From a virus: a DNA stretch of 64,000 bases. The stretch covers positions 1 through 64,000 of the IMG/VR virus record IMGVR_UViG_3300027668_000011; one strand, written 5' to 3'. The translations under genes were made by a program, and so were the position numbers. A model generated the notes under the pieces. The model made no database searches, was not told the origin of the DNA, and saw only the letters and a program-made list of their open reading frames with translations. Shown piece after piece: positions 8,798 to 26,959 of this stretch (the stretch's first letter is position 1; each line of letters starts with the position of its first letter).

Positions 8798-8831
8798 GTA
8801 ACTACTGCCTCTTTGCGTTAATATGTATACT

Positions 8832-8859
8832 ATTATACAGTATTTTGCTGGTAAGTCAA
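8832..8859 (-). promoter_or_regulatory. sigma-70-type early promoter
   Basis: Reading leftward: TTGACT at 8859-8854, a 16-bp spacer, TATAAT at 8837-8832. An A-rich element GGTAAAAAAC lies just upstream, also seen at the promoter at 50563-50591. It should drive the 92-residue gene, the structured RNA candidate, tRNA-Trp and the small genes down to about 6428. Confidence 0.88.
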
Positions 8860-8886
8860 CCGTTTTTTACCGGTATTTGTGGTTTA

Positions 8887-8894
8887 GATAAGTA
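8887..8894 (+). promoter_or_regulatory. late-promoter-like GATAAGTA
   Basis: GATAAGTA, one base from GATAAATA, lies 34 bases before the ATG at 8929. The leader between holds the Shine-Dalgarno TAGGAGA. Confidence 0.5.
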
Positions 8895-8928
8895 CTATTG
8901 TAGGTCATACGGGTCGTAGGAGACGCAC

Positions 8929-9402: not shown

Positions 9403-9407
9403 GTAAG

Positions 9408-9497
9408 TGGCGGAGAGTGAGGGATTCGAACCCTCGATACAGTTACCCATATACCTCCTTAGCAGGGAGGCGCTTTCGACCACTCAGCCAACTCTCC
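9408..9497 (-). tRNA. tRNA-Ser (anticodon GCT)
   Basis: A 90-base class II tRNA: acceptor GGAGAGT/ACTCTCC, anticodon stem CCTCC/GGAGG with loop CTGCTAA (GCT), an extended variable arm (TATATGGGTAACTGTA), T-arm GAGGG-TTCGAAT-CCCTC, and encoded CCA. It has its own consensus promoter immediately upstream. Confidence 0.95.
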
Positions 9498-9507
9498 GTA
9501 TGTAGAC

Positions 9508-9536
9508 ATTATAGTAGTTATCACGTCTTGTGTCAA
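9508..9536 (-). promoter_or_regulatory. consensus sigma-70-type promoter for tRNA-Ser
   Basis: Reading leftward: TTGACA at 9536-9531, a 17-bp spacer, TATAAT at 9513-9508. Both hexamers match consensus exactly. The tRNA begins 10 bases further. Confidence 0.92.
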
Positions 9537-9550
9537 GAACTTTAGAAAGT

Positions 9551-9558
9551 GATAAATA
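9551..9558 (+). promoter_or_regulatory. T4-type late promoter GATAAATA, leaderless class
   Basis: GATAAATA, CTGCT, then the ATG of gp14 at 9564. It abuts the divergent tRNA-Ser promoter, so the two transcription units start within 20 bases of each other. Confidence 0.78.
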
Positions 9559-9563
9559 CTGCT

Positions 9564-10586
9564 ATGCCTAGATTAAGTTTATGGAACAAGAACAAAACAA
9601 ACGACTATGATTTTCAAGATAGAATTATTGCCGAGAATATCAACGCGGGTGGAACAGGAGTCTATGTACACAAATACATAGGAACATACACTGATGACAC
9701 CACTGCAAGTACCGGAACAGGAGACTTGTATATACAAGATGTACTGTTTTTAGAAAACAGAGACAGGAAGTATGATACTGATATCTACGAATTACGTGGC
9801 AGTTATACTCCCGGTGATCCAGAGTTTGACTTAACACAGTTTGGACTGTTTGTTAACAATGACTCATTGTTTATGACTTTCCATATGAATACCTTAGCTA
9901 GTTTATTAGGCAGACGTTTAATGGCAGGTGATGTTGTTGAGCTACCTCATTTACGAGATGACTTATTACTTGGTGGCGGTGAAGCCGTTAATAGATATTT
10001 TGTTGTTAGTGATGCAGGCAGACCAGCAGAAGGCTACGATGCAAGATGGTGGCCCCACTTGTGGAGAGTGAAACTAACTAACATAACAGACAGTCCAGAG
10101 TACAGAGATATACTTGGCACTGGTGAAAGTGCTGACGATTTACGAAATATATTAAGTACTTACAGCACAGAAATTGCTATATCAGATAAAGTTCAAGCAT
10201 TGGCGGCGGCTGAAACACCGTATGATGCAGACTATGTAGCTGGTGGTCATTTGTATGTAGAAGGTGACGCACCTGGAATTTATCTTCCTAATGTCGATGG
10301 CACTCCTCCAAACGGAGCAGTTATAGTTGGCAGTGGCGCAACATTCCCGGCAGATGCAAACGAAGGCGATTACTTCCTAAGAACAGACTTTTCACCGCAC
10401 AGATTATTCTTAAAGAACTTGAGTGTTTGGCGTAGGGTTAGTGATGATAAGACACAGGCATGGTCGGCGGCTAACAAGATACTTACTTCGTTTGTTAACA
10501 ATGATGACCAAAGAATTAATACTGATGGTACAACTGATTCAGTTAAAACTAATCTCAGTAAAATAGTGAAACCGAAGGCAGACTAG
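9564..10586 (+). CDS. gp14: neck protein, T4 gp14-like
   Basis: A 340-residue protein starting MPRLSLWNKNKTNDYDFQDR. It contains GGTGVYVHKYIGTY, QDVLFLENRDRKYD, LTQFGLFVNNDSLFMTFHMN, GDVVELPHL and RWWPHLWRVKL, which are diagnostic blocks of marine T4-type gp14. gp14 forms the neck with gp13 and is needed to join head and tail. The C-terminal third holds an added beta-rich stretch (GGHLYVEGDAPGIYLPN and FLKNLSVWRRV). The start at 9564 is set by the late promoter and by homology; an in-frame ATG at 9549 would lie upstream of the predicted transcript. gp15 follows after 1 base. Confidence 0.9.
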   Translation: MPRLSLWNKNKTNDYDFQDRIIAENINAGGTGVYVHKYIGTYTDDTTASTGTGDLYIQDVLFLENRDRKYDTDIYELRGSYTPGDPEFDLTQFGLFVNNDSLFMTFHMNTLASLLGRRLMAGDVVELPHLRDDLLLGGGEAVNRYFVVSDAGRPAEGYDARWWPHLWRVKLTNITDSPEYRDILGTGESADDLRNILSTYSTEIAISDKVQALAAAETPYDADYVAGGHLYVEGDAPGIYLPNVDGTPPNGAVIVGSGATFPADANEGDYFLRTDFSPHRLFLKNLSVWRRVSDDKTQAWSAANKILTSFVNNDDQRINTDGTTDSVKTNLSKIVKPKAD

Positions 10587-13096: not shown

Positions 13097-15193
13097 TTAT
13101 TTGCCTGTGGCTATCATAATTCCGTTCCAATCCTTAGGCAAGTCTTGTGTCTTTTGAAATTCACAGCGTTCAATCCACATAGTATAGTAGCCTTTCATTT
13201 TGCCGTCAAACGTTTTAGATAATTGCTTACATAATTTAATTGCTTTATCAAAATCTTGATTGCGATAATGTTCATGCATTTGTGCATGTAGTTGTTTGCC
13301 TTTAACATACTTAGTTAGCTTAATATCTAATGCAGTATATATTTCTATGCCAACGCTTTTACCTTTTACTTGCAAGTCATCTACTTTTAAATAAAAGAAA
13401 TTATTCTTAGTATGTTTATATGTATCACCGCCCACAAGGAGTAAACATCCGTACTCTTTACATTTGCTTTCTATTCTTGCCGCGGTACTAACTGCATCTC
13501 CGAGTATGTCGTAACTGTGCCTGGCAGTGGAGCCCATTTCCCCAATATAACCGAGCCCAGTATTAATACCAGCACCCATACCAATGGGTGGTCTGCCTTC
13601 TTTAACAATTTTATCATTGAATTTCTCTACTGCCCTGAGCATTAATATGCCTGTTTCCACCGCACTCTTAGGGTGGTCTGGATCATCCATTGGAGCATTA
13701 TGTATATGCATACTGGCATCACCGATATATTTAATCACCATGCCGTTTGCATCTAGTATAGGTTGTGTAATTGCATCCATATACCCGTTCATTATTTCTG
13801 TTAACCCTTTAACATCATCGCCAAAGCTCTCGCCTAATGGGGTAAATCCACGTAAATCTGAGAAGCATATACTTACTTCCTTCTTCATACCCTGCTTAAT
13901 TAGTTCTGGGTTTTCTTGCAACATACGAACCACTGTAGGAGAGGCGTAACCGGCAAATTGTTTTTGTATCTCAGCTCTTAGTTTAAATTGTATCCAGAAG
14001 TTATTAAAACTTGCCTGTGTAAATATTAAGAAACTTGCTATTGCTGGAAAAGTAGCATCAAATAATACTAAGTTTGCAGTATAAGAATATATACTATAAT
14101 ATACAATTCCGCCTATAATAGTAACTGTGGTCACTAAACCTACCCAAATGTGCGATTTATATATTGCTAGACCTATTAATATCATGCCCAGTAACGCACA
14201 CAGAAGCTCGTACACAGCACTTAACTCGTTCCTGGTAATGTTACTGCTATCTATAAAGTTTTGTAGCATATGAGCGTGTATTTGCTGTGGATACAAGTTG
14301 CCTCTTGGTGTAGGCACAGGATTTGCAATACCTTCTGCTGTAACACCTACTATAACCATTTTGCCTGCAAGATGGGTCAGAGTTTCGGCTCCTAAGTATT
14401 CAATTTCCTCGAATGTATTATTAAAGCGAATGTATGCTGTGCCGTCTGACTGTGTTACAATTGGATCGTATCCTTTAACTGTAACTTCTTGTATTCCTAA
14501 TTCGCTAGTTTTAACTATATAACTTTTTTGACCTTTACTTACCCTTAGCATTTCAATAGCAAAACTAGGATACAGTCTATCGCCAACTGTAATTGCTAAT
14601 GGGTATGTTCGTGTTTGATTATCTGGCTGTGGCGCTGACGCTGTTACGCCTTTGCCGTTTGCTACTGCTTCTAGTAGCGGAATGTTTGTAACTAAGTTGG
14701 GCCACTTTAGTAAATAATTTTTTGCTGGCACAGGACCGATTGTGCCTGTTCCTATATGTGGGCCTGATGTTTTAATGCCTCTTGTACTAGTTGCTTGACT
14801 TAATACATTAAAGTTAATAGGATTACGTCTTGCTCCTTGCACATTAACTTTATTTTCCATCAAGTAATTAGCAAATATTTCATCTCCGGCGAATCTATCT
14901 GCTTCAGGAAACATAATAGTCCAGCCTAGCACACCGCCTCCGGCTCCTGCAACATCTATCACCAGTTGTGCATAGTATTGTCTGGGCCAAGGGTATTGAC
15001 CATTAACTGCTAAACTTTTTTCCCCGATGTTTAATAGTACAACATCCTGGCTTTGCTTAATTTCATCTAACTGTTGATATGCATCAAATGTTTGCCCTCT
15101 AACACTCTGTAGTGCCGTTGGATCTGCTACTCGCAATGCAAGTAGCAACACAATAGATATCAATACTGCATAACCACTATATAAAAATTTCAT
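13097..15193 (-). CDS. CHASE2-domain membrane adenylate cyclase (class III)
   Basis: A 698-residue protein with, in order: an N-terminal membrane helix (residues 8-21); an extracytoplasmic CHASE2 sensor domain (about 25-320, with VVLLNIGEKSL, YPWPRQYYAQL and LGWTIMFPEADR, typical of CHASE2); three further membrane helices (about 327-345, 349-368, 373-393); and a class III cyclase domain (437-620). In the cyclase, metal-binding Asp446 (FSDLRGFT) and Asp492 (YIGDASM) are present, as are Lys488 and Asp562, which select adenine, and Arg573. The transition-state Asn position reads Ser569 (GDAVSTAARIE). A helical, TPR-like tail follows. Synthesis of cAMP from ATP is the expected activity. I know of no such gene as a standard phage component. 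It has a leaderless-type late promoter. Confidence 0.93.
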   Translation of the reverse strand: MKFLYSGYAVLISIVLLLALRVADPTALQSVRGQTFDAYQQLDEIKQSQDVVLLNIGEKSLAVNGQYPWPRQYYAQLVIDVAGAGGGVLGWTIMFPEADRFAGDEIFANYLMENKVNVQGARRNPINFNVLSQATSTRGIKTSGPHIGTGTIGPVPAKNYLLKWPNLVTNIPLLEAVANGKGVTASAPQPDNQTRTYPLAITVGDRLYPSFAIEMLRVSKGQKSYIVKTSELGIQEVTVKGYDPIVTQSDGTAYIRFNNTFEEIEYLGAETLTHLAGKMVIVGVTAEGIANPVPTPRGNLYPQQIHAHMLQNFIDSSNITRNELSAVYELLCALLGMILIGLAIYKSHIWVGLVTTVTIIGGIVYYSIYSYTANLVLFDATFPAIASFLIFTQASFNNFWIQFKLRAEIQKQFAGYASPTVVRMLQENPELIKQGMKKEVSICFSDLRGFTPLGESFGDDVKGLTEIMNGYMDAITQPILDANGMVIKYIGDASMHIHNAPMDDPDHPKSAVETGILMLRAVEKFNDKIVKEGRPPIGMGAGINTGLGYIGEMGSTARHSYDILGDAVSTAARIESKCKEYGCLLLVGGDTYKHTKNNFFYLKVDDLQVKGKSVGIEIYTALDIKLTKYVKGKQLHAQMHEHYRNQDFDKAIKLCKQLSKTFDGKMKGYYTMWIERCEFQKTQDLPKDWNGIMIATGK

Positions 15194-15208: not shown

Positions 15209-15661
15209 TTATTCAGTGTCGTTGAGTGGATTTTCAAGTATAGTCATTATCTTGTCTTCCAGCTCTTTTCTTAACTCTCTAGTTTCTGCATCCATCTCTT
15301 TAAAACGTGTATTCATATCACGTTCCATAGCATACACATCATTTCTAATTTCTCTTTGTGTGTCAGCTGATGTTTTTTCAGTTTCCCTTGATAAGTCCAT
15401 TGCTACTTTAACTTCGTCTCTAGCTGAATTAATATCTGCTCTCAAATCCGTTTTAATAACTTCAGTAAGTTCAGTTAGTCTTACTAGTTCAGTCTGAATT
15501 GCTTCTGGTTGTAAGTTTGCTAATGTTTCTTCTGCTTCAAGTAGTCTACTGTAGAGTTCAAAGCCTCCCCATAGTCCACCGATTATAGTACCAAGTAAAG
15601 GAAGCATAATCATAAGTTTTGAACCACTCATTTTTACACCTGCATATTCTACTTCTGCCAT
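15209..15661 (-). CDS. membrane-anchored coiled-coil protein
   Basis: A 150-residue protein. A short cytoplasmic N-terminus (MAEVEYAGVKMSGSK) precedes one membrane span (about 16-36, LMIMLPLLGTIIGGLWGGF), then a long charged coiled coil to the end (EVIKTDLRADINSARDEV, METDTRELRKEL-like heptads). TAGGAG precedes the ATG. I recall the MAEVEYxGxKxxGSK-L-LPLLGT start as a recurring unnamed protein of marine T4-type phages. It lies between the nidogen-like secreted protein and the cyclase. A spanin-like or scaffold role in the inner membrane is possible but unproven. Confidence 0.8.
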   Translation of the reverse strand: MAEVEYAGVKMSGSKLMIMLPLLGTIIGGLWGGFELYSRLLEAEETLANLQPEAIQTELVRLTELTEVIKTDLRADINSARDEVKVAMDLSRETEKTSADTQREIRNDVYAMERDMNTRFKEMDAETRELRKELEDKIMTILENPLNDTE

Positions 15662-15671
15662 TTTATTTCTC

Positions 15672-18600
15672 CTATTTTTCTTTTAATTTATATTGGCTGT
15701 ATATCATTTCTTTTAGTTTCTCTTGAGTATTTCCAGCCATCATGTAAAAACTCTGTACGTTATCAACATTCTTTTGTCCTTTGTACACTTGCGAACTACC
15801 ATACCATGCTTGTTGGTCTGCTAATTGTATTTGGCTAGTGTACTCACTAAAGCCTGCTGTATAACCAATATAAGCAACAGCAATAGTTTGGTCGCCATAT
15901 TCATTGGAGTCCTCATTACCTGCTTGTATTGTGTCTAATTCTGCTTGTAAGTTTGCGGCGGCAACTGTTGCTCCCATTGTATCTGCTAAACTTTCTACTG
16001 CGTCTGATTGTCGTTGCTCTTGGAACGTAGGTGCTTCAACTTCAAACCTACTGTAATCTGCCGGTGCTTGGCTTAGGAATTCTGTTAAGCCTGTGCCACT
16101 ACTTAATGCTGTGGTTAGTTCATCTTCAAACTGTATGTCTGCTCCACTTATGCCACTTGTACCGTCATCGAAGTTTTCTACAAACTGTAGTGTTTCTTCT
16201 TGTTGTACTGTTTGGGCATCAGCTGAACTTTCAGCAACTGTAAATGCACCAGTATCAAATGATTCTGTTACACTTGTTGTAGCACTGAAACTTTCTTGTC
16301 CCATGCTTTGCTCTATTTGTTCTTGGAAGAAACTATCACCACTTGTATCTTCTTGTGCTAACATTCCTTGTCCGCTGTCCTGGCTACCATTTGAATTTTG
16401 TGACTGGCTTGAACCGTCATTGCTTTGAGCATAACTACCACTGCCGTCATTACCACTGCTATTGCTACTGCCTGATCCATCGTCGAAACTACCTGAGCCG
16501 TCATCAATACTACCTGAGCCGTCATCAATAATATCAGCAATAAGTTCTTCAACAACTTCCTGTGTACTACCACCGTCGCTACTGTTAAAGTCTAAATTAA
16601 ATTGTGCTACACTAACACTCATTACACCTGAACCAGCATTACTAAGAAACTGGGTGTCTGTTTTTTGTTGTTCTTGTCGTTGTTCTTGTCGTTGTTCTTG
16701 TGCCTTGGGTGTAGTAGATTCTGCTACTTGATAATCGCCTGGGCCTTCTTGAAATTGTTCTTCATGCTGTTCTTCATGCAGTTCTATGTCAGCATACACT
16801 TCATTTCTAAAGTCGTCTAATTCGTCTGCACTTAATATGTCCTCCAATCCTTCTTCTTTGATAAAGGCTTCGAATGCCTCTTCTGGATCAAGGTCAAAGT
16901 ATGCCTCTTCCTCATACATTCTTTCGTTTTCAAATGCTATTAGTTCATCTTCCGATAAGTCAAAAAATTCTTCAAGCTCACATGTAGGACATTTTTCAAA
17001 ATCCTTTGCTATCATTTCTTCGTACATCAGTTCTTCTTCGTCTGAATAAACTTCATACACTTCATAAGCGTATTCTTCATCCATTAGCATGTCAAATGAT
17101 TCCCAATCCATCTCTCCACTCTCGTCAAATACTACTTCTTTGCCGTACCACTCATCTACTTGATCTTGTCCAAATTCTTTTAGATCGTATTCATACCAAT
17201 CTTTTGATGTCCAGCTGTATGCGTCTGGTCCAAACTCTGCTTCAAACTCTGCTTCCCACATATCTTCTTGTTGCTGGTATTCTTCTGTACTCCATATATC
17301 ACTGCTTGTATATCCATCTACCCAGCCGTTTTCTTCTGCTTCATTCAACATAAACTCGTCATGCATTTCATAGTTGTAATCGTCTTGTCCTATAATTTCA
17401 TAAACTAAGTCGCCTGGGTTGTTACCTTGAAATTGTATGTTAGGATCATGTCCTAATGCTAGTAGGTCACCTTGGCCCATTGTAATTAGTGTGGCTTCCT
17501 GCATACTTAAACCTTGACCAACTAACATCTGTTGTTCTTCACTTAAATATTCAAACTTTATATCGTCATCTTGCATTGGGTCGTATTGGTCAGGAACATA
17601 TATGCCATCTTCATTCAAATAAAAGTTATCGCCGGACGTATTATTCATGCTATCATAATCCACATTAGGATCATATCCATCGGAATAATAAGAGCCATCT
17701 ATACTAATTGTCGAACCATCACTTTGCGTAACTAATCCTGTGTTAGGATCATAGCCGTCCATGTTGCCAAATTCTTGTGGGTTATAATTAAAGTCATACG
17801 CTTCTCCTGTAGCATAATCATAATCACTGAAAGTTTCAAAAATACCTAATCCGGCACATTGTGGTAAGCTCGGATCTTCGTAACATGCATTTTCTTCTAA
17901 ATATGTGTCTTCTAAGTCACCAAAGTATCCGTCACAGTCTGGACTATATGAACTATCGGAGAGGCATTGTTGTGCTAAGAAACTTATACTATATAAACTA
18001 CATGATGTGCTAAAAAGAGGATTATTCTCACACTCTGCAGGCTGTACGCCATTACCGTCTTTGTATATTGCTCCGCCTTCTACGTTTCCTTGGTCATAGT
18101 CGTCCCATATAAAAAGGTGTCGTCCTTGAGTGCCGTCATTTGGGTTTATACAATCTGCACACCAACTATTATCACTAAAAAAGTATGCTTCAGTAAAGGA
18201 GTTCGAGTTTTTCTTTTCTCCAATTAAAACATTACTGTGACTAATTTCTAAGTTACCGTATATGTAAGCATAGTCATCGTTTTCGTCATCTGTGTTGCCT
18301 GGGCAATCTGTACAGTTTTGATTTAAAAGCACCACCTCAAACGTATTATGTGCGTTTGGATACATTGGATCAAATTTATCCGTATCTGCTGTTACGCCAT
18401 ACTCACGCATATAGTACCAGCCAAATGTAGCAAAGTTGCCCGAGTTATTAAAGAGCATTGTGCTATTAACCGGTGCTTGGGTATCGTATATTGTGCCTAA
18501 GTCTAAGTCACTCCAGAAAGGGAATAGTGTATCGTTCATTCCTGAAGAGGCACTTAGATGCTTTACATCATAACTACAGTAATCACTACTGCTAAACGCA

Positions 18601-18896
18601 CTTGACTTCAACAGTTTTAAACAACCATTAGTACTCATTAAGCCGTGAGTGAATGTTTCGCCATGCCAGTCAAAATCAAAGCCAATAGCAAATGCTATAT
18701 TACAACCTGTTTCATCTGCGGCGCCTTGACATAGTATTGAACCGTTGCTGTTGCCACCCTGATAATAGTCGCCAACAAGATTTACTAAAGGATAGCCAGT
18801 ATTATCAGTCGTGTATCCTCCGTCGGCTTCAGATACTGTAGGAAATAAAGTTAGTACGCCTACAGCAAGTGCTGTTATTAAGCGTTTGATTCCCAT
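15672..18896 (-). CDS. large secreted acidic protein with nidogen-like N-terminal domain
   Basis: A 1074-residue protein with a signal peptide (MGIKRLITALAVGVLTLFPTVSEA). Residues about 25-275 form a nidogen-like domain: IGFDFDWHGETFTHGLMSTNG, LFPFWSDLDLGT, NFATFGWYYM and NTFEVVLLNQN. Then come paired cysteines, Tyr/Asp-rich repeats, a very acidic Glu-rich helical stretch (about 510-710), a QEQRQEQ repeat, a tandem DDGSGS segment near residues 800-850, and a Gln/Ala-rich tail. Nidogen-like domains occur in extracellular adhesins and receptor-binding proteins. It overlaps the Asn/Thr-rich gene upstream by 19 bases, so the two secreted proteins are co-translated. A surface or matrix role is inferred. 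Confidence 0.85.
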   Translation of the reverse strand: MGIKRLITALAVGVLTLFPTVSEADGGYTTDNTGYPLVNLVGDYYQGGNSNGSILCQGAADETGCNIAFAIGFDFDWHGETFTHGLMSTNGCLKLLKSSAFSSSDYCSYDVKHLSASSGMNDTLFPFWSDLDLGTIYDTQAPVNSTMLFNNSGNFATFGWYYMREYGVTADTDKFDPMYPNAHNTFEVVLLNQNCTDCPGNTDDENDDYAYIYGNLEISHSNVLIGEKKNSNSFTEAYFFSDNSWCADCINPNDGTQGRHLFIWDDYDQGNVEGGAIYKDGNGVQPAECENNPLFSTSCSLYSISFLAQQCLSDSSYSPDCDGYFGDLEDTYLEENACYEDPSLPQCAGLGIFETFSDYDYATGEAYDFNYNPQEFGNMDGYDPNTGLVTQSDGSTISIDGSYYSDGYDPNVDYDSMNNTSGDNFYLNEDGIYVPDQYDPMQDDDIKFEYLSEEQQMLVGQGLSMQEATLITMGQGDLLALGHDPNIQFQGNNPGDLVYEIIGQDDYNYEMHDEFMLNEAEENGWVDGYTSSDIWSTEEYQQQEDMWEAEFEAEFGPDAYSWTSKDWYEYDLKEFGQDQVDEWYGKEVVFDESGEMDWESFDMLMDEEYAYEVYEVYSDEEELMYEEMIAKDFEKCPTCELEEFFDLSEDELIAFENERMYEEEAYFDLDPEEAFEAFIKEEGLEDILSADELDDFRNEVYADIELHEEQHEEQFQEGPGDYQVAESTTPKAQEQRQEQRQEQQKTDTQFLSNAGSGVMSVSVAQFNLDFNSSDGGSTQEVVEELIADIIDDGSGSIDDGSGSFDDGSGSSNSSGNDGSGSYAQSNDGSSQSQNSNGSQDSGQGMLAQEDTSGDSFFQEQIEQSMGQESFSATTSVTESFDTGAFTVAESSADAQTVQQEETLQFVENFDDGTSGISGADIQFEDELTTALSSGTGLTEFLSQAPADYSRFEVEAPTFQEQRQSDAVESLADTMGATVAAANLQAELDTIQAGNEDSNEYGDQTIAVAYIGYTAGFSEYTSQIQLADQQAWYGSSQVYKGQKNVDNVQSFYMMAGNTQEKLKEMIYSQYKLKEK

Positions 18897-20329
18897 TCTG
18901 CCTCACATTGGCCCGAACTTTTCTTCTTGCCTTTGCCTGTTTTCTTACGACATTTTTTCATGAACTTATCAAAGTCTTCGCCTGTGTTAAGTACATTCGA
19001 GTCTACTTTAGCCGATGACCTTGTGTTTTTCTTTCTGCCGAACCATCCACGTTTAGCATCTGCTCGTTCATCGCTATTCTCTGCCCATTGCTTAGTAGCC
19101 GCATCGCCAATTGCTCCCATGTAAGGACAAGGTGTTCCAGCCATTTCCATCGCTGTAAATACACGTTCGTCTTGACACATTAAACTAACTGCCGCAACCT
19201 TCATGCCCATATCGTATATAGTTTTACTTAACTTTATACGTTCACAGTTCATATCTCTAACTGATTTACCGCCACTTAGTCCAAATACTTGTCCTTGGAA
19301 AGCACCTGATATACCAGTTGTACATAAGTCTTGTGAGTAACTAGAACCAATGCTTGGTGCAATAGCACTAGCAGGTGGAGCCTTAGTTGTTATCTCTTGC
19401 TTAATAGTCTGGTCAGTCTTGTTGATGTTTTCGTTTTTATTAGTATTATTATTGGTGTTGGTATTGTTACTTTCTGACGTGTTGTCAGTTGTTACATTAC
19501 TGTCACTAGTCGATGTATTATTATTGTTATTAGTATTATCACTGGTCGAGTTGTTATTGTTATTATTGGTGTTGGTATTGTTACTAGTACTATTTGAATT
19601 CACGTTCTGATCAATATTACTATTGTTCGTATTAGTGTTATTCGAAGTACTGTTTACCGTGCTATCACTAGTGTTATTATTGGTGTTGGTATTGTTCGAA
19701 GTGCTATTGTTGGTGTTGGTATTATTATTCGTATTAGCATTGGTGTTATTTGTTCCACCACTCGACACATTGTTGTTGGTACTAGTCGATGTATTATTAT
19801 TCGTGTTCGTGTTCGCGTTGGTGTTATTATTTGTCGACGTATTATTATTGGTGTTGCTGTTGGTCGAATTGTTAGTATTGGTCGAATTATTCGTGTTCGT
19901 ATTCGCGTTGGTATTATTGTTGGTATTATTGTTGGTATTGGTATTCGTGTTCGTGTTCGTATTCGCGTTGGTGTTCGTGTTGGTGTTCGTATTCGCGTTG
20001 GTGTTCGTGTTCGTATTCGCGTTGGTGTTTGTATTTGTCGAATTATTCGTATTCGTCGAATTATTCGTATTCGTCGAAGTATTCGTGTTTGTGTTCGCGT
20101 TGGTATTCGTGTTCGTATTCGCGTTGGTATTCGTGTTCGTCGAAGTATTCGTGTTCGTCGAAGTATTCGTATTATTCGCAGTAGTTGTGGTTGTACTTGT
20201 AGTATCCGATGTACTTGCTTCACAATACTGGGTACCTGCTGTACATGTGCCGGTGGCCTGGGCCTGTACTGTACCAGTTGTCGTCATTAACCCAATCAAG
20301 GCTAATGCTGATAAGATTCTTATCTTCAT
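18878..20329 (-). CDS. secreted Asn/Thr-repeat protein with Cys-containing C-terminal domain
   Basis: A 483-residue protein. A signal peptide (about residues 1-23) is followed by a low-complexity stretch of alternating Asn and Thr (about 45-300), then a structured C-terminal domain (about 310-483). That domain has DLCTTGISGAFQGQVFGLSGG, MNCERIKLSKTIYDMGMKVA, SLMCQDERVFTAMEMAGTPCPYMG and a basic, Cys-bearing end (KKCRKKTGKGKKK). The C-terminal domain resembles one seen in other marine phages, from memory. The start has AAAGGAG upstream. Asn/Thr-rich linkers of this kind are flexible or amyloid-prone. Its position in a region with curlin-like genes suggests a role at the cell surface. Confidence 0.85.
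   Translation of the reverse strand: MKIRILSALALIGLMTTTGTVQAQATGTCTAGTQYCEASTSDTTSTTTTTANNTNTSTNTNTSTNTNTNANTNTNTNANTNTNTSTNTNNSTNTNNSTNTNTNANTNTNTNANTNTNTNTNANTNTNTNTNTNNNTNNNTNANTNTNNSTNTNNSTNSNTNNNTSTNNNTNANTNTNNNTSTSTNNNVSSGGTNNTNANTNNNTNTNNSTSNNTNTNNNTSDSTVNSTSNNTNTNNSNIDQNVNSNSTSNNTNTNNNNNNSTSDNTNNNNNTSTSDSNVTTDNTSESNNTNTNNNTNKNENINKTDQTIKQEITTKAPPASAIAPSIGSSYSQDLCTTGISGAFQGQVFGLSGGKSVRDMNCERIKLSKTIYDMGMKVAAVSLMCQDERVFTAMEMAGTPCPYMGAIGDAATKQWAENSDERADAKRGWFGRKKNTRSSAKVDSNVLNTGEDFDKFMKKCRKKTGKGKKKSSGQCEAEWESNA
19440..20190. repeat. low-complexity Asn/Thr codon repeat array
   Basis: About 750 bases of near-tandem 6-, 12- and 18-base units inside the preceding gene (on the plus strand variations of GTATTCGTGTTCGTATTCGCGTTG). 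Different synonymous codons are mixed, so it is not a single recent expansion, but slippage could change its length quickly. Confidence 0.85.
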
Positions 20330-20419
20330 TTTTTCTCCTTTAGGGTACTGTGTTTTAGTGGGGCAGTTATGTGTGGGTGTGTTGTGTAATAAAGTAAACC
20401 CTGTGTTATTATGTACAAG

Positions 20420-20427
20420 TATTTATC
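20420..20427 (-). promoter_or_regulatory. T4-type late promoter GATAAATA with leader
   Basis: GATAAATAC reads leftward about 90 bases before the ATG at 20329. The leader ends with AAAGGAG. The promoter lies just downstream of the terminator at 20439-20461, so it begins a new unit. Confidence 0.72.
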
Positions 20428-20438
20428 GTTTAAAAAAC

Positions 20439-20461
20439 AAAAAAGCACTCTTGCGAGTGCT
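20439..20461 (-). terminator. intrinsic terminator
   Basis: Reading leftward, AGCACTC pairs with GAGTGCT (7 bp, loop GCAA) followed by TTTTTTGTTTTTT. It ends the transcript of the lipoprotein gene at 20633-20911. Confidence 0.85.
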
Positions 20462-20507
20462 TTAGTGCTAACATTATCGCATCTAATCGTCTATCTATCG
20501 ATTATTG

Positions 20508-20663
20508 CTAACATTCCTTTGGGTTAGTTGTACAGTATTTTTCTAACTTCTCTTGGTTCTGTTTGAAAAGTAAGACTAATTCCTGTGCTGTGAGTTGCTT
20601 TTCCTTTTCTTTTCTGAAAAGAGAAAAGTTACCTACTTTCCCGGCTCTTTGTCTTTTTGTAAT
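20508..20663 (-). other. open -1 frame after the lipoprotein gene, possible frameshift extension
   Basis: A 51-codon open frame without ATG, GTG or TTG overlaps the end of the lipoprotein gene in its -1 frame and ends at 20508. The last part (EKQLTAQELVLLFKQNQEKL and then EKYCTTNPKEC) looks like real protein. The CAAAAAG stretch at 20659-20653 could allow a -1 shift, but it is not a canonical heptamer. A remnant gene is the alternative. Confidence 0.3.
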
Positions 20664-20911
20664 TCATCAGTTTGTTTATCAACATTTTCTGCAACTGTTT
20701 TAACAACACCTTGTGCTGTGTCAATAGTTACGTCTGCAATGTTTCGAACATCATCAGTAATCGCTACTGCCATTGTGGCGGCTCCGCCCACAACAGAGTC
20801 AACTGTTCCTGTGACAATCTCTGTACCAGCATTCCAGGCGCCACTAACTGAGGCACATCCTACGATGCTTGATAAAAGAATTAAACCGAAAAAAGATACT
20901 AAATTATTCAT
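20633..20911 (-). CDS. small lipoprotein
   Basis: A 92-residue protein with a lipoprotein signal peptide: hydrophobic residues 4-15, then SSIVGCAS with the lipidated Cys19. The mature part has a small amphipathic region (VTGTVDSVVGGAATMAVAI) and a charged tail (ENVDKQTDELQKDKEPGK). It resembles short entericidin-like or spanin-like lipoproteins only in size. AAGGAG precedes the ATG; a late promoter lies 50 bases upstream and a terminator downstream. Outer-membrane or periplasmic location is inferred from the signal. Confidence 0.8.
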   Translation of the reverse strand: MNNLVSFFGLILLSSIVGCASVSGAWNAGTEIVTGTVDSVVGGAATMAVAITDDVRNIADVTIDTAQGVVKTVAENVDKQTDELQKDKEPGK

Positions 20912-20962
20912 ATCCGTCTCCTTATATAAGGTAATAAAGCCATCTGCTATTATTACATATAG

Positions 20963-20970
20963 TATTTATC
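20963..20970 (-). promoter_or_regulatory. T4-type late promoter GATAAATA with leader
   Basis: GATAAATAC reads leftward, 52 bases before the lipoprotein start. The octamer abuts the stop region of the upstream membrane gene. Confidence 0.7.
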
Positions 20971-20973
20971 TAA

Positions 20974-21312
20974 TTAAATGATGTGGTATGGGTCAAACGT
21001 GCCTGAAAGTCCGTTGTGTTTTTCAATTTCCCAAAGTTCCATACGCAGTATTTGTCTAGTGTGTTCGTTTGTGGTTGTTTGTATGAGGAACATTAATTGA
21101 CTTCTTTGGGAATTTTCTATTTGGTATATCAGTTCACACCAAGCATACATTAATCCAGTCAGCATAAATGTTGCCATAATGGTTACTGTTAGCATAGGGA
21201 ACATCAAAGAGATTATAACTAAATGTGGAATTGCTACAATCGTGAGTAATAACTGTGTAGATTTCTTATATTTAGAAATCGCAGTGGCGAGTTTAGCCTG
21301 TGTGGTTTTCAT
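20974..21312 (-). CDS. two-span membrane protein
   Basis: A 112-residue protein. After a basic N-terminus (KLATAISKYKKS) come two membrane helices (about residues 20-38 and 41-61), then a soluble charged tail (NSQRSQLMFLIQTTTNEHTRQ). It overlaps the 66-residue membrane gene by 20 bases. Two spans with both ends inside is a holin-like topology, but there is no endolysin beside it. I assign no function. Confidence 0.7.
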   Translation of the reverse strand: MKTTQAKLATAISKYKKSTQLLLTIVAIPHLVIISLMFPMLTVTIMATFMLTGLMYAWCELIYQIENSQRSQLMFLIQTTTNEHTRQILRMELWEIEKHNGLSGTFDPYHII

Positions 21313-21493
21313 CTAGTTGATTATTCTGTGCTTTGTGCAGTTCTTCTATAATACTGTTTTTGAAGTCTGCGCCATGCCAATAACTATCTAAACCGATATC
21401 CACCATAAGTGCTACTAATACTAATGTTAGTATGAAGCTAAGGTATATGTTTATACCAGCTGATATCTTCAACCACTTGATCATGTGTCTCAT
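21293..21493 (-). CDS. small single-span membrane protein
   Basis: A 66-residue protein, MRHMIKWLKISAGINIYLSF, with one membrane span (about 12-35) and a hydrophilic tail. The first ATG lies 7 bases after a consensus -10 TATAAT, so the transcript would start almost at the ATG. The second ATG (Met4) is the other possible start. It is probably early and followed by the 112-residue membrane protein in the same transcript. Confidence 0.7.
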   Translation of the reverse strand: MRHMIKWLKISAGINIYLSFILTLVLVALMVDIGLDSYWHGADFKNSIIEELHKAQNNQLDENHTG

Positions 21494-21535: not shown

Positions 21536-22477
21536 TTAGTCTTGGGTTACACTTATAGAACAGCCGCCAACTGTGTGGCACGTCTGAGTAAGTGAGTATG
21601 ACTTTGCTGAATTCGAGCTTTGTAATAGCGTCAGATTACTAGGTTGTGTTCCGTTCAACACTATTGTGGCTGTGTGAGCACCATTACTGTGTTGAGTTAT
21701 ACTACCAACGGTACCATCAACGTAAGAGGAATAATTTAATGTCTTTGCTCCATCTGTTTGTTGATTGACATAAAGTGTGTTGTCATCTGCATACAAGTAT
21801 AAATTTGCAGTATGACCATCATAAGTATCAAGACTACCGTTTCTTTGCATTCCAACAAGAGTATTATTGTTACCGTGAATGTCTAACGTTGCTGTATGGT
21901 TTCCGCCCTCGTCGCCATCATCGTAAAATGTGGTACTCGATATACTGCCGCCAGAACCAAACCAAACTCCTTGACCATATCGAACTGTATTAGAATTTCC
22001 TTTGATATGAAATCCTATATCTGATTTGCCACAACTTGCGCCACGAGTACAATTTTGATGGAAGTATATCTGATTACTATTTCCGTCTAAGTCGCCGCCA
22101 AACCCAATACCAGTGCCCCAGGCATTAGTCCAGCCAACTTCGTTATTACTGCCATGCTGTTCTATTTGCATAGTGTTGTGGGTGCCATCAACACTAAAAA
22201 ACACGTTGTTACTTTCGGCGCCCTCGGAGTGTCCTTGGCCTATTTTAAGTGTATTGTTAGTATTATTATTCAATCCTAGTACTATATCTATTTTATTAAT
22301 AGCGCCGGCTTGCATTATATCTACAACCACATTATCACCTTCCTGATCTAGCACCACTTCATTGTCTGCTTTTGCTGTTGCTGGTAATAATAGCATCATA
22401 CCCAATAAGATATATCCTAATACTAACAGAGGAGTATCTTTTGGCTTCATGTCATTTAATTTTTTTTCTATATTCAT
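21536..22477 (-). CDS. curlin-like secreted protein (CsgA/CsgB-type repeats), copy 1
   Basis: A 313-residue protein with an unusually long N-terminus before its signal helix (about 15-37) and the mature start ADNEVVLDQEGDNVVVDIMQAG. The rest is a series of Asn/Gln/Gly-rich strands with N-x-V/I-x-x-x-Q-x-G/H-x-x-N spacing (NTMQIEQHGSNNEVG, NSNQIYFHQN, NSNTVRYGQG, NNTLVGMQRNG, DNTLYVNQQTDG, NLTLLQSSNSA). This is the beta-helix amyloid pattern of curli subunits. It ends with a Cys pair (QTCHTVGGCSI). The ATG overlaps the stop of the FecR-domain gene (ATGA). It is probably secreted through the CsgG pore encoded upstream. Confidence 0.8.
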   Translation of the reverse strand: MNIEKKLNDMKPKDTPLLVLGYILLGMMLLLPATAKADNEVVLDQEGDNVVVDIMQAGAINKIDIVLGLNNNTNNTLKIGQGHSEGAESNNVFFSVDGTHNTMQIEQHGSNNEVGWTNAWGTGIGFGGDLDGNSNQIYFHQNCTRGASCGKSDIGFHIKGNSNTVRYGQGVWFGSGGSISSTTFYDDGDEGGNHTATLDIHGNNNTLVGMQRNGSLDTYDGHTANLYLYADDNTLYVNQQTDGAKTLNYSSYVDGTVGSITQHSNGAHTATIVLNGTQPSNLTLLQSSNSAKSYSLTQTCHTVGGCSISVTQD

Positions 22478-23646
22478 TCTTGTGTTATACTTATTAATAT
22501 GTTTTCACAACTACTTAAACATATAATAGTGTCTCCTAAATCTCCGTCTTTTATATCTAGCTGTGCGACAGAACCTTTTCGTAATTTAATACTAATTTTA
22601 TTGCTTACTTGCCTGAGAAAAAATACTTTGCCATCTAAGTCTGGAATAATATTAAATTGATTTCCAGGATTGGTTCCGTATACAGCACCTATTAATTTAT
22701 TATCGCCACTGCCTGAGTCTCCGCCTTTTTCATCTAATCCACTAGTAGTTTTTTCTACAATGTCTAATAAGTCTACTAGGAAGTCTACATTTAATAAATC
22801 TATATCCAATTCCGTGTAGTCTAAATCTTCTGTTGTATCTGCTAAAACATCTTGCTCAATTGCATTTGCATCTAAGCCATCAAAGTCTAATAATCCGTTG
22901 TCGCCTTTTAATTCTTGTACTTGTTCTTCTTTTGCTTCTGTAATCTGTTTTGGTTCTGCTACAATAAACATATTATCTATCATATTTAAATCTAAATCAA
23001 CCAACACAACAGGCTGTGTAGGGCTTGTTTCAAATGTGCTTACCATTACTGCCTGGTAGGCTTCATCTAATATTACTGTGCCGCCTTGATTTGTTACCGT
23101 TATGCTACCACTTGGAGCACACCCTTCTTCTAATGCTACTGTATTAGTACAGTCTTCGTCCGGTAATAATATCACTAGACTCCTACCCAGTTCATCGACT
23201 GTGGTAGTAAAATCGGTTCCTCTAATCCCTATACTTGCGGTAGGGGTCAGGATTGTTATATTTTCTTTTGCTACGAGACCTAAACTGCCCGTGGCAAACC
23301 TAGCTGTTCCTTGTACAAAATTTAATGCCATCTTGCTTTTACTTGGATCTGGGTCGAATACATATTCGTCTATTTCCATGTAAGTGTGTTCTGTTAGACT
23401 AACCTGGGTTTTGTCGAGAAACTCAATTTTTAGTCTCCCATTTGTTGTTTCTACTTCATCATAACTTACAATATTGGCTAAAATATTAGCCGCCAGTTCT
23501 TCGCCTGACAACCTTACAATACTTCCAGTTGCTCCACTTTGTTCAATAATGCCGCCGATGCTCTCAGCGGCACTCAGATTTGGTGTAAGCAACAGTACTA
23601 ATACTGCTGTTATGTTAATCAGTCTGTTTAATAAGAACTGATGCAT
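22474..23646 (-). CDS. FecR-domain secreted protein
   Basis: A 390-residue protein with a signal peptide (about 1-27, ending LSAAES). The FecR domain spans about residues 28-180: GGIIEQSGATGSIVRLSGEEL, VETTNGRLKIEFLDKTQVSLT, YMEIDEYVFDP, VQGTARFATG and the diagnostic TPTASIGIRGTDFTT. The C-terminal half is acidic, with DLDYTELDIDLLNVDFLVDL. FecR domains are periplasmic or secreted ligand-binding modules. It sits between the two curlin-like genes with overlapping reading frames on both sides, so it is likely part of the same secretion unit, perhaps binding substrate or membrane. Confidence 0.85.
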   Translation of the reverse strand: MHQFLLNRLINITAVLVLLLTPNLSAAESIGGIIEQSGATGSIVRLSGEELAANILANIVSYDEVETTNGRLKIEFLDKTQVSLTEHTYMEIDEYVFDPDPSKSKMALNFVQGTARFATGSLGLVAKENITILTPTASIGIRGTDFTTTVDELGRSLVILLPDEDCTNTVALEEGCAPSGSITVTNQGGTVILDEAYQAVMVSTFETSPTQPVVLVDLDLNMIDNMFIVAEPKQITEAKEEQVQELKGDNGLLDFDGLDANAIEQDVLADTTEDLDYTELDIDLLNVDFLVDLLDIVEKTTSGLDEKGGDSGSGDNKLIGAVYGTNPGNQFNIIPDLDGKVFFLRQVSNKISIKLRKGSVAQLDIKDGDLGDTIICLSSCENILISITQE

Positions 23647-24445
23647 TTTCGCTATTTAGATTTATGTTAATTATACCTTCACACGTTGGACTACATGTTG
23701 CTGTCATGTCCTGTATGAATTGAAAATCACCATCACTGCCGTCTAAGACTACTGTTAAGGAATGACCACCGTTACCACTTTGTTTAGTAGCAAATTTGTT
23801 GTCGTCTCCTATAATTTCCATATTCCATACAACGTTACTAGTATCAATTGTAATACCTGCTAAAGCAGATGTGCCAGTTCCAGTACTTTTAATTCCGCCA
23901 ACAGCGTTATTGCCTGATGCTGATGCCCAAGCTGTAGTATTGTTGAAACTTGCAGTAAAATTGTTCCTAGAACCAAGTATATCTAAATCAAAGTTAGTGC
24001 TTTCCGCCGCGGCACTGTGAGCTATGCCAACATCAAATGTGTTGCCGTCGCCCTGAATGTCTACTAGCATGTCTGTATTATCTGCACTATTAGAGTTAGC
24101 ACCGATCTGTAAATCCCAGACGTTACTATCACCTAATTGATAAAAGTCCATTACTGAACTTCCGGATCCATCAAATATTAAGTCTCCAAAAAACTTATTT
24201 GTGTTACCGTCTTGTATGATATCAATTATCAAACTGTTACCAGTTACAACTAAATCTCCTGACCCTGAGGCCACTCCAGAAACTCTGTTACTGTTACCAG
24301 CTTGTAATATTGTTAATATTAAGTTGTCACCTTCTTGGTCTAGTAGTACTTCGTTATCCGTTGCACCTAGAGCCTGACTTCCTATTATTACACTTACTAT
24401 AGCGAAGACTTGTAGTGTAAATTTCTTTATTACGTTTGTCTTCAT
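23615..24445 (-). CDS. curlin-like secreted protein, copy 2
   Basis: A 276-residue protein with a signal peptide (about 1-28, ending QALGAT). The mature start DNEVLLDQEGDNLILTILQAG is nearly the same as in copy 1, then NSNRVSG, NSLIIDIIQDGNTNKFFG, SSVMDFYQLGDSNVWDL and NKFATKQSGNGGHSLTV repeats follow. These show the N-x-x-x-I-x-Q-x-G curlin spacing. It ends in a Cys-bearing strand segment. The ATG overlaps the CsgG stop (ATGA) with GGAGAAG upstream. The two copies are clearly related at the N-terminus and diverge later, as major and minor curli subunits do. Confidence 0.8.
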   Translation of the reverse strand: MKTNVIKKFTLQVFAIVSVIIGSQALGATDNEVLLDQEGDNLILTILQAGNSNRVSGVASGSGDLVVTGNSLIIDIIQDGNTNKFFGDLIFDGSGSSVMDFYQLGDSNVWDLQIGANSNSADNTDMLVDIQGDGNTFDVGIAHSAAAESTNFDLDILGSRNNFTASFNNTTAWASASGNNAVGGIKSTGTGTSALAGITIDTSNVVWNMEIIGDDNKFATKQSGNGGHSLTVVLDGSDGDFQFIQDMTATCSPTCEGIININLNSENASVLIKQTD

Positions 24446-25452
24446 TTTTCTTCTCCATTAATGGGTTCACTTTTTAGTAATATTTTTTTCCAAAAAGTAT
24501 TCTGTGATGACGTAGGCTTCTCGTCTACATCTGTATCCAAAATTTCTTGATTATTGACTTTCATCCAGTAAGCTCGTTCTTGCTGATCTACTTCTTCTTG
24601 CCAATTCTCCGGATACACAATTTTCCAATATCCTCTTTCATCACCTTGTTGTATCAATGCCAATACTGCGGCTTCAATCGCCGACCGGACTGCATAAGTT
24701 ACGCTCTCGTTCTGTGTCATGCCACTTTCCAATTCAAGCAATCGTGTATCCATGTCTAAAAATTTGAATACGTCTCCTGCCATTCCTGTACTAAGGATAG
24801 TTTTGTATGTCTGTACATTCAGTATTACTTCACCGGTGAGCGTACTTACTGCTCTAAGTGATATAGTAACACTATCTCTTCTATATTGGTTTGTAGTACC
24901 AATACCTAAGTACCTTGCACCATTACCGCCAGTCTCTACATTAGTGTCATAACCTACAACACCTCCTTCGAGTATCATACCAGCAAATAACAATGGCTGT
25001 ACTGCTTGTTGAGGTTTTTCTTCAGTCTGATATTGTTCGCGTGTACTACGAACTATCTGCCTTTCCCTCACTAAGTTATCTAAGCCAAGACCCCGTTCAA
25101 CTACCCGGAACCATGTTCCTTTTGGGTTTTCGTGAGCACCTGCCGCCTTCAAGGCGTCAATCAATATGCTCTTCGGATCCTGTGTGACCGCTGTACTAAA
25201 ACTAGCGACACCATCTTGACTTTTTCTTTGTCCTGTTTGGTCAGTAAACTGATAAACAGCTACCACTGGCATTGTTTCGCTAGGTGGTAAATATCGTAAT
25301 TTTCGATATGTGGGTAATTCTACTTGCTTCGGCTCTTCTACGCATTCGAGAAAGTCCGTATTACATGCTGTATCACCGGGTATAGATATACTAGCACACC
25401 CAGTTAAGTACATTGCGCCGACAAAGAACAGTATGTAATTAGACAGTTTCAT
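24442..25452 (-). CDS. csgG: CsgG-like curli secretion pore lipoprotein
   Basis: A 336-residue lipoprotein (signal with YLTGCAS, lipidated Cys19). It carries the blocks of CsgG: VVAVYQFTDQTGQRK, a long insert with WFRVVERGLGLDNLVRERQ, LLFAGMILEGGVVGYDTNVETGG, ARYLGIG, YRRDSVTISLRAVSTLTGEVILNVQTYKTILS and a C-terminal YAVRSAIEAAVLALI. CsgG forms a nonameric outer-membrane channel for curli subunits. The length is some 60 residues above the E. coli protein. Gene order CsgF-CsgG-curlin-FecR-curlin, with stop/start overlaps, makes an operon of a curli-like system. CsgG-like genes have been reported in some marine T4-type phages, from memory. Confidence 0.93.
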   Translation of the reverse strand: MKLSNYILFFVGAMYLTGCASISIPGDTACNTDFLECVEEPKQVELPTYRKLRYLPPSETMPVVAVYQFTDQTGQRKSQDGVASFSTAVTQDPKSILIDALKAAGAHENPKGTWFRVVERGLGLDNLVRERQIVRSTREQYQTEEKPQQAVQPLLFAGMILEGGVVGYDTNVETGGNGARYLGIGTTNQYRRDSVTISLRAVSTLTGEVILNVQTYKTILSTGMAGDVFKFLDMDTRLLELESGMTQNESVTYAVRSAIEAAVLALIQQGDERGYWKIVYPENWQEEVDQQERAYWMKVNNQEILDTDVDEKPTSSQNTFWKKILLKSEPINGEEK

Positions 25453-25967
25453 TAACCGCCGCCAATGTTGCCGATTCCAATTGGAATCTCAATAGTTGTT
25501 ATTGTTCCGTCAGGGTCAACAATAGTCATTCTAATAATAGATAGCCCATCTTCATTAACTGTTTTAATGTATGTAACAGTATTTCCTTCAATTTCAAAAC
25601 TACCTGAATCTGAATTTGTACATGCAATAACTACTGCTGGATCACAAAACATGCTGTCGACTAATCCTTTAGAAATTTGTGAATAAATTCTACTCTCCAA
25701 ATTTCTAATAAATTTATTAATTGTCGAATTATCATTGTCACGTTCTGCTCGTTTTAACGCAGATTCTATGTCTTCTTTAATCTTATCTTTTCGTGACTTC
25801 TCCTGGTTCTCAATTGTTAAATAATGTGCTCCTGTCCCGTTACCAGAAAATGACGGAGACTTGAACTTAAACTTTAGTTCATCGGCATAAAGGTCACTAT
25901 TAGCCAAAGACATTATAAAATATCCGACCATAACCAACATACCTAAGTGTGTACCTGTAATTTTCAT
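25452..25967 (-). CDS. csgF: CsgF-like curli assembly protein
   Basis: A 171-residue protein with a signal peptide (about 1-28). The mature start ELKFKFKSPSFSGNGTGAHYL corresponds to the conserved CsgF N-terminus (F-NPSFGGNP-NG), the part that inserts into the CsgG channel. A charged helix (RKDKIKEDIESALKRAERD) and a beta-rich C-terminus (DSGSFEIEGNTVTYIKTVN, IIRMTIVDPDGTITTIEIP) follow, as in CsgF. It is directly upstream of CsgG with a TAATG overlap. CsgF links nucleation of the curli fibre to the pore. CsgE is not visible in the window. Confidence 0.85.
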   Translation of the reverse strand: MKITGTHLGMLVMVGYFIMSLANSDLYADELKFKFKSPSFSGNGTGAHYLTIENQEKSRKDKIKEDIESALKRAERDNDNSTINKFIRNLESRIYSQISKGLVDSMFCDPAVVIACTNSDSGSFEIEGNTVTYIKTVNEDGLSIIRMTIVDPDGTITTIEIPIGIGNIGGG

Positions 25968-25968
25968 T

Positions 25969-26268
25969 TTACTTTCCTGTTTGCTTTTGTTTTAATGTTT
26001 TTAATGCAGTTTCTTGTTCTGCATTGTCTAGCACTTGTTGTCTAGCTCTGTATTCTAACACAACATCAACTTTCTGTTGTAGCCTAATTAAATCTTGGTC
26101 TAATCTACGCATTTTATCTATTACTCTGATTAGTGCTATATGCATGTCGCCAAGAGCGGGATCTATCTTTTCTCCAATAAACCACCATATATAATATATA
26201 AAGTAACCGAGTCCAACGCATAACACGATTGGAAATCCAAAGTCATTAATCGCCTGTGCAATATCCAT
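25969..26268 (-). CDS. single-span membrane protein with coiled tail (phage curli-operon partner)
   Basis: A 99-residue protein, MDIAQAINDFGFPIVLCVGLGYFIYY, with one membrane span (about 12-31) and a helical charged tail (ALIRVIDKMRRLDQDLIRLQQKVDVVLEY). It begins at a TAATG overlap with the upstream gene. The short periplasmic lead, one span and cytoplasmic coil recur next to CsgG in marine T4-type phages, from memory. A holin-like or scaffold role is conceivable. Confidence 0.8.
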   Translation of the reverse strand: MDIAQAINDFGFPIVLCVGLGYFIYYIWWFIGEKIDPALGDMHIALIRVIDKMRRLDQDLIRLQQKVDVVLEYRARQQVLDNAEQETALKTLKQKQTGK

Positions 26269-26564
26269 TAGTCTCTCCTAGCATCCACTTTGCCATCTTC
26301 GACAAAATTATCTGCTCTCGAAACTCGATCTATGTCAGGTCTGAGGTCTAAGGCACTGCTAACTAGCAAGTCTATTTTTAACATTTCGTTACTCATAGTA
26401 CTTGCTCTCGCTTCTAGTGATGTGCAAAACATAGTCAAAGTTTTGACCTGGTCTACAACACCCTCGAGAATTTGTTTTATTACCATAAAGATAAAGAATC
26501 CCATTACTAGACTTCCGGCGATGGGGGCTCCTACTTCAGCGATCAATCCAAATATTTCTTCCAT
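26268..26564 (-). CDS. single-span membrane protein with coiled tail, paralogous layout
   Basis: A 98-residue protein, MEEIFGLIAEVGAPIAGSLVMGFFIFMVI, with one membrane span (about 12-31), a coil with Cys47 and an acidic-basic end. The layout matches the next gene downstream, so the two may form a hetero-oligomer. It is the first gene after the late promoter at 26629-26636 and therefore heads the curli-like operon. Confidence 0.8.
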   Translation of the reverse strand: MEEIFGLIAEVGAPIAGSLVMGFFIFMVIKQILEGVVDQVKTLTMFCTSLEARASTMSNEMLKIDLLVSSALDLRPDIDRVSRADNFVEDGKVDARRD

Positions 26565-26824: not shown

Positions 26825-26959
26825 ATGGCGAATCCAACAGGAATAGTAGCCATGTTATCCAAGTTCGGAACATCGGTTACCAATCTTTCTAAAGAATTTG
26901 ACAAATACATGAAGTCAGGAAATATCTGGCATGTCATGAATCAAAGTCAGAAGCTTTAA
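26825..26959 (+). CDS. 44-residue protein of unknown function
   Basis: A small gene: MANPTGIVAMLSKFGTSVTN followed by LSKEFDKYMKSGNIWHVMNQ and SQKL. It has a strong AGGAGA 8 bases before the ATG, a late promoter upstream and a strong bidirectional terminator starting 12 bases after its stop, so it is an independent, probably highly expressed unit. It is amphipathic and mildly basic with no membrane span. Size and expression signals would suit a small virion or assembly protein. I do not recognise it. Confidence 0.75.
   Translation: MANPTGIVAMLSKFGTSVTNLSKEFDKYMKSGNIWHVMNQSQKL

Follow-up and report, generated by a model that had tools for sequence, protein, structure and literature searches.

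What use does a phage have for a curli-type secretion operon, and why would such an operon include a gene for a FecR-domain protein? We addressed these questions on a 64,000-nucleotide stretch of viral DNA (positions 1 to 64,000 of the IMG/VR record IMGVR_UViG_3300027668_000011; hereafter, the window), which belongs to an 81,541-base virus record that is a fragment and not a whole genome. Seven open reading frames (ORFs) on its minus strand, running from position 26564 to 21536, encode two membrane proteins, CsgF, CsgG, a first curlin-like protein (curlin 1), a protein with a FecR domain and another curlin-like protein (curlin 2). We consider it reasonably probable that, together with a distal gene for a CHASE2-adenylate/guanylate cyclase, they form a phage type VIII (curli) secretion module, expressed late in infection, whose FecR protein is attached by its C-terminal tail to the fibre or the pore and reports to the cyclase. 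This tail, a terminal phi-x-phi-x-Q strand, is a new feature, beyond what was described for the published phage modules.

Organization and conservation of the operon

The two genes at the head of the operon code for single-span membrane proteins of 98 and 99 amino acids (26268–26564 and 25969–26268, respectively), distant paralogues assigned to a single family (phrog_18771, E-values of 3e-23 and 8e-21). They are followed by the genes for CsgF, the outer-membrane pore accessory and nucleation chaperone (25452–25967; PF10614, E-value 3.3e-11), and CsgG, the lipoprotein secretion pore of the outer membrane (24442–25452; PF03783, E-value 3.4e-48), both matches lying well beyond the curated Pfam cut-offs. 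Next come curlin 1, a secreted, beta-solenoid-like subunit (23615–24445), the FecR-domain protein (22474–23646; PF04773, E-value 1.3e-9) and curlin 2 (21536–22477), a subunit that is optional in the relatives. In operon order, the genes overlap by 1, 1, 4, 32 and 4 nucleotides (nt), with one spacer of 1 nt directly before CsgF, and a T4-type late-promoter word, GATAAATA, is present on the same strand at 26634–26627, 63–70 nt 5' of the first gene. A preliminary description, made from the DNA letters alone, had read the locus as CsgF, CsgG, two curlin-like and FecR genes on one strand, with overlapping stops and starts, behind such a promoter; the ORF coordinates, the Pfam matches and the promoter word bear this out.

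Relatives of the operon were collected in two IMG/VR scans, which gave 160 loci, and identical FecR sets were then removed. The search for the same gene order in other phages, suggested in the preliminary description, retrieved the complete order (two membrane proteins, CsgF, CsgG, curlin, FecR and curlin) from 56 distinct viral loci, and 23 more presented it without a detected second curlin. Of 88 distinct loci, 57 have the promoter motif [TG]ATAAAT[AG] within 150 nt 5' of the first gene; among random 150-mers from the same loci, it occurs in 150 of 3220 (4.7%). Every gene of the operon is under purifying selection, with ratios of nonsynonymous to synonymous substitution rates (dN/dS) of 0.03–0.26 versus the nearest relatives, the value of 0.03 being that of membrane protein 1 versus locus L004.

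The module extends beyond these seven genes. A CHASE2-adenylate/guanylate cyclase (13097–15193, minus strand; PF05226, 4.9e-33, and PF00211, 2.6e-15) is encoded 3' of FecR, as it is in 68 of the 75 loci whose sequence continues for more than 5 kb past FecR. It lies outside the region delimited in the preliminary description (21536–26564), in which this conserved member of the module was missed.

The FecR protein and its C-terminal tail

The FecR protein begins with a signal-peptide-like helix. Its AlphaFold2 model comprises a confident FecR domain (about residues 31–215), an acidic linker of low confidence, presumed disordered, and a C-terminal domain (residues 331–389) of six 7-residue strands (predicted local distance difference test scores of 84–89) that ends in ISITQE. 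The FecR domain is present in all 30 relatives analysed and is the only one detected in them, with no sigma-binding or any other second domain; by Foldseek, it resembles that of the anti-sigma protein PupR (E-value 2e-4). The terminal strand, I-x-I-x-Q, is invariant across these 30 relatives, which are 28–67% identical.

The tail, counted as [VIL]x[VIL]xQ, is almost confined to FecR proteins linked to curli genes. It is present in 105 of the 107 FecR of phage curli operons, and in 4 of the 84 FecR-domain ORFs from genome contigs, all four being those of curli-type loci (L161–L164), so that the others score 0/80. In other ORFs of the same phage loci it occurs in 10 of 1185 cases (about 1%), at least two of them curlins. 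Ordinary bacterial curlins share such ends (ITITQH, VTVIQH and VTVTQN), and a matrix built from six bacterial curlin C-termini separated curli-linked FecR from background with an area under the curve (AUC) of 0.97, placing 52 of 84 above the 99th percentile; for unlinked FecR the same matrix gave an AUC of 0.64 and 0 of 80 above that percentile. With its curlin-like tail and a cyclase as partner, FecR looks like a part or a sensor of the fibre machine, not a gene regulator. A cysteine pair, present in the FecR clade of the window, was also considered as a general C-terminal signature and discarded, being found in just 35 of the 107 FecR.

Two of the four curli-type genome loci, L164 (a contig of a Pirellulales metagenome-assembled genome, MAG) and L161 (a Planctomycetaceae MAG contig), carry genes of the phage-type curli module and are probably phage contigs misbinned into Planctomycetes genomes.

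FecR–cyclase pairs and bacterial curli operons

Among 79 bacterial or MAG loci with FecR, four of which are the curli-type ones, a cyclase match was observed in 48, in 32 of these over most of the model, with many of the genes 0–18 nt apart; the FecR–cyclase pair thus exists apart from curli. As in the phage module, a FecR-domain gene adjoins a CHASE2 cyclase gene in these pairs, often overlapping it, but their FecR is devoid of the curlin-like tail (0/80) and no CsgG was detected alongside.

The closest bacterial counterpart of the phage module was identified in two Caulobacteraceae MAG contigs (L163 and L290), in which CsgF, CsgG, two curlins, FecR and the CHASE2 cyclase are encoded in one operon among ordinary bacterial genes, the FecR ending in INVTQD. 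It differs from the phage module in its chromosomal setting, in having both curlins ahead of FecR and in giving no match to the head membrane genes. These contigs contradict the statement of the preliminary description that FecR is not part of bacterial curli operons, and rule out a phage-only origin of the linkage of FecR and cyclase to curli. In five of six alphaproteobacterial curli operons examined, neither FecR nor cyclase was present within about 8 kb; since L163 and L290 have the linkage and these five operons lack it, it is not confined to phages, nor is it general among bacteria. The curli systems of E. coli and ordinary Alphaproteobacteria have CsgG, CsgF and curlin repeats in common with the phage module, and their curlins, too, end in phi-x-phi-x-Q.

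The secretion pore and the curlin-like substrates

CsgG of the window aligns with E. coli CsgG (PDB 3x2r) with an E-value of 5e-45, and because this alignment runs through the region of both transmembrane hairpins, the loss of these hairpins, which the preliminary description regarded as an argument against its own reading, is not what we observed. The lipobox cysteine of CsgG is invariant (17 relatives), and the mature N-terminus of CsgF, FKSPSFSG, is conserved (23 clusters). In contrast to E. coli curli, no match to the periplasmic gate CsgE was found in the 81.5 kb record, which is a fragment; CsgE was reported not to be essential in E. coli (Zaragoza-Solas et al., 2020, PMC7029224). A CsgG-like protein, 39% identical to that of the window, is also encoded in a 1499-base record named Salmonella phage S.Kent 1-2-1 (OR851715.1), which is probably host DNA deposited as phage.

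The mature N-termini of the two curlins start with DNEVxLDQEGDN, as had been noted in the preliminary description. The curlin-repeat identity of both is established at the family level, through relatives: 15 of 35 members of the curlin 1 family match Curlin_rpt at an E-value of at most 0.01 (best 6.8e-8), and relatives of curlin 2 reach 5.5e-11. The AlphaFold2 model of curlin 1 is all-beta and solenoid-like (predicted template modelling score of 0.70), with weak beta-helix matches in the PDB by Foldseek (E-values above 0.02). A tblastn search with curlin 1 against isolated phages gave no match, as curlins diverge fast, and in the relatives curlins were assigned by position. An ORF intervenes between CsgG and FecR in all 102 loci that have both genes, and in 96 of them it carries phi-x-phi-x-Q in the last 25 residues; the pairing of substrate and pore, whose lack of conservation would have spoken against a secretion system, is therefore conserved.

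Curlin 2 is the fastest-evolving gene of the operon (dN/dS of about 0.22–0.26), with 48–65% identity where the pore has 80–98%; in locus L004 it is 65% identical, and the other operon genes are 90–98% identical. It is missing in loci where the FecR and cyclase genes touch or overlap. All 49 curlin 2 proteins contain C-x(2-6)-C in their last 45 amino acids, and curlin 2 of the window shares with many relatives an unusual conserved leader, MNI(D/E)(E/K)KLNxMKPKDTPLLVLGYIxLGM, with a long charged n-region ahead of the hydrophobic part, which is possibly a special targeting signal. In the cultured phage HTVC008M, curlin 2 (AGE60352.1, annotated as hypothetical; 8549–9874 of locus L291) has a PA14 domain (2.7e-6) ahead of the curlin repeats and is a possible adhesin-tipped subunit. 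Such a domain, and the speed at which curlin 2 diverges, suggest that this subunit is exposed and serves in binding.

Published phage modules and the lineage of this phage

CsgF and CsgG with unassigned neighbours were described in pelagimyophages, with the proposal of 'sibling capture' (Zaragoza-Solas et al., 2020, PMC7029224). The pore of the Methylophilales phage Melnitz was described later, the phage being said to lack csgA/B, and a role in lysis was proposed (Buchholz et al., 2022, PMC9004378). Wittmers et al. (2022, PMC9599517) reported, in podo- and myoviruses, one or two 'histidine kinases', CsgF, CsgG, CsgA/B, FecR, a second CsgA/B and an adenylate cyclase. The module of the window has the same gene content and order as the latter. 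The preliminary description is hence confirmed in its observation of the operon, and its reading of a phage-borne curli-like (type VIII) secretion operon is supported by the gene identities and conserved order and is mostly right in kind; it was already in print, and the suggestion of a distinct system is not borne out, since this gene order, with FecR and the second curlin in it, has been published for pelagiphage myo- and podoviruses (PMC9599517; PMC7029224).

The module is intact in the cultured phages HTVC008M and Melnitz. HTVC008M, in which PMC7029224 named just CsgF and CsgG, shares with the window CsgF, CsgG (48.5% identical), a curlin, a FecR with the tail GGQENAITINQTN and the cyclase, and differs in the PA14 domain of its curlin 2. 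The GenBank record of Melnitz (MZ577097.1) contains the complete module with FecR and, contrary to its paper, two curlin-repeat proteins (53793–54809 and 52015–52734).

Compared with the module of Wittmers et al., curlin 2 and cyclase are separated in the window by about 6 kb of extra secreted-protein genes, the head genes have no kinase domain and the phage belongs to another, larger T4-like lineage. The head genes are apparently the published 'histidine kinases', judging from their position, and we reject that label, since the proteins have 98–99 amino acids and no kinase domain (phosphoacceptor or ATPase) was found in 20 members of the family of the pair. Their best matches to holin-type families (phrog_4898, 0.028; YvrJ, 0.049) are non-significant, and a resemblance is suggestive at best.

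The gp23 of the window shares 70% identity with that of Pseudomonas phage PA5oct (287 kb) and its kin, and is 85–100% identical to those of viral contigs of 83–340 kb with the same module; in other contigs gp23 is 36–39% identical or was not found. Because of these identities, we assign the window to a separate marine, probably jumbo, T4-like lineage, differing from the published pelagimyophages.

Genes between and around the module

Curlin 2 and cyclase are separated by a variable insert (15209–21493, minus strand) of six ORFs, mostly for secreted or membrane proteins: three small proteins of 66, 112 and 92 amino acids, proteins of 483 and 1074 amino acids, and a coiled-coil membrane protein of 150 amino acids, the last three being retained in just 5–14 loci. 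The secreted 483-residue protein (18878–20329, minus strand; 14 loci) consists, over more than half of its length, of Asn/Thr repeats (TNTNTNNN...) and has a conserved C-terminal part (phrog_20531). The adjoining 1074-residue protein (15672–18896, minus strand) is acidic and secreted, has no Pfam or PHROG match and is related to proteins in just six loci. On the other side, between the curli operon and a tail-fibre gene, a short plus-strand ORF (26825–26959; about 44 amino acids, MANPTGIVAMLSKFGTSV...) is followed by a clear hairpin-T terminator.

Further along the window, a secreted protein of 425 amino acids (51497–52774, minus strand), without a Pfam match, contains a haem-binding CxxCH motif (CVVCH) near its mature N-terminus; phages would not ordinarily be expected to encode a protein resembling c-type cytochromes. 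An 827-residue protein (47843–50326, minus strand) presents a lipobox-like LGLGACASGG and FG-GAP repeats (5e-17), and its C-terminal part looks, by eye, like an outer-membrane barrel.

Proposed mechanism and alternative explanations

We propose that, late in infection, CsgG/CsgF pores would be inserted in the host outer membrane and that one or two curlin-like subunits would leave the cell through them. FecR and the CHASE2 cyclase would form an ancient sensor pair of the periplasm that was recruited to the secretion operon; the C-terminal curlin-like strand would keep FecR attached to the pore or the end of the fibre, or make it part of either, and the FecR domain may report the state of fibre or pore to the cyclase through the periplasmic CHASE2 domain of the latter. 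The benefit for the phage would most likely be aggregation or adhesion of infected cells; lysis, aggregation and progeny capture have all been proposed in print. A more specific version, in which FecR is a fibre-coupled sensor telling the inner-membrane cyclase whether secretion has begun, so that the phage and some Caulobacteraceae would control host cyclic AMP by the state of an extracellular amyloid, is speculative and, in our judgement, unlikely.

Several observations weigh against the proposed mechanism. The curlins of the window, taken by themselves, give weak or non-significant matches to Curlin_rpt (E-values of 0.0034, short of the cut-off, for curlin 1 and 0.58 for curlin 2), and cells infected by Melnitz, which has the same module, showed no clumping (Buchholz et al., 2022, PMC9004378). 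The cyclase presents the FSDLRGF and KYIGDA motifs and the arginine, but its loop YDILGDAVSTAAR has a serine at the usual position of the transition-state asparagine, a replacement shared by 21 of the 80 phage cyclases of the family, that of the window included, which may alter its activity. As the linked FecR of phages all belong to a single family, the counts of the FecR tail are not independent. When the C-terminal domain of FecR was compared with curlin 1 by hhalign, the E-value was 0.07, with one of 60 column-shuffled controls scoring higher, and no FecR relative matched Curlin_rpt. Since the profile comparison is non-significant, we dropped homology of this domain to curlin and claim the motif alone, that is, a specific motif shared with curlins and not demonstrated homology or contact.

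The FecR tail could instead be a chance or inherited trait of one phage FecR family, with no curlin contact, and the FecR–cyclase pair would simply ride along. The monophyly of the linked FecR in the published tree (Wittmers et al., 2022, PMC9599517) and the profile comparison above are in line with this explanation, which we take to be somewhat unlikely, as the three terminal positions are invariant though identity in the domain around them has fallen to 28%, and the same tail is present in the bacterial FecR of the Caulobacteraceae curli operons.

A lysis device, in which a gated or pinholin-like opening of the outer membrane by CsgG/CsgF times lysis with the head proteins as holin-like partners, was put forward with a gene-synteny argument (Buchholz et al., 2022, PMC9004378), and the conserved late-promoter word and the slight, non-significant similarity of the head genes to holins and YvrJ are compatible with it. 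We find it distinctly improbable: it leaves unexplained why curlins are conserved and under purifying selection and accounts for neither the FecR tail nor the cyclase, and its premise of a Melnitz without curlins is contradicted by the GenBank record of that phage.

Opening of the outer membrane for the import of large nutrients or siderophores for phage replication (PMC7029224; PMC9599517), with which the missing CsgE gate would agree, is very improbable, given that the conserved CsgF and curlins are not needed for uptake; besides, the record is incomplete, and among the matches listed for the alphaproteobacterial operons there was no CsgE either, no search for CsgE having been made there. 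The least probable explanation is that FecR regulates transcription of the operon in response to iron and the head genes are histidine kinases, as published (Wittmers et al., 2022, PMC9599517) and as the PupR-like fold might suggest, seeing that FecR starts with a signal peptide and has a sole detected domain, that its distant bacterial pairing partner is a CHASE2 cyclase and that the head proteins, of 98–99 amino acids, are devoid of a kinase domain.

Significance

With this locus, the curli module known from marine phages is documented in a further, larger T4-like lineage, and a CHASE2 cyclase proves to be its usual last member. Three points are corrected: the kinase label of the head genes, the curlins 'missing' from Melnitz and the 'absence' of FecR and cyclase from bacterial curli operons. 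Besides the head-gene label and the lineage of the phage, the new content consists of the FecR tail and the controls run for it, the counterpart operon in bacteria and the FecR–cyclase pairing. If the FecR tail works as proposed, an unexplained 'regulator' would turn out to supply the connection, missing so far, from an exported amyloid to a cyclase of the inner membrane, and the tail would offer a concrete test of the purpose of the phage curli operon.

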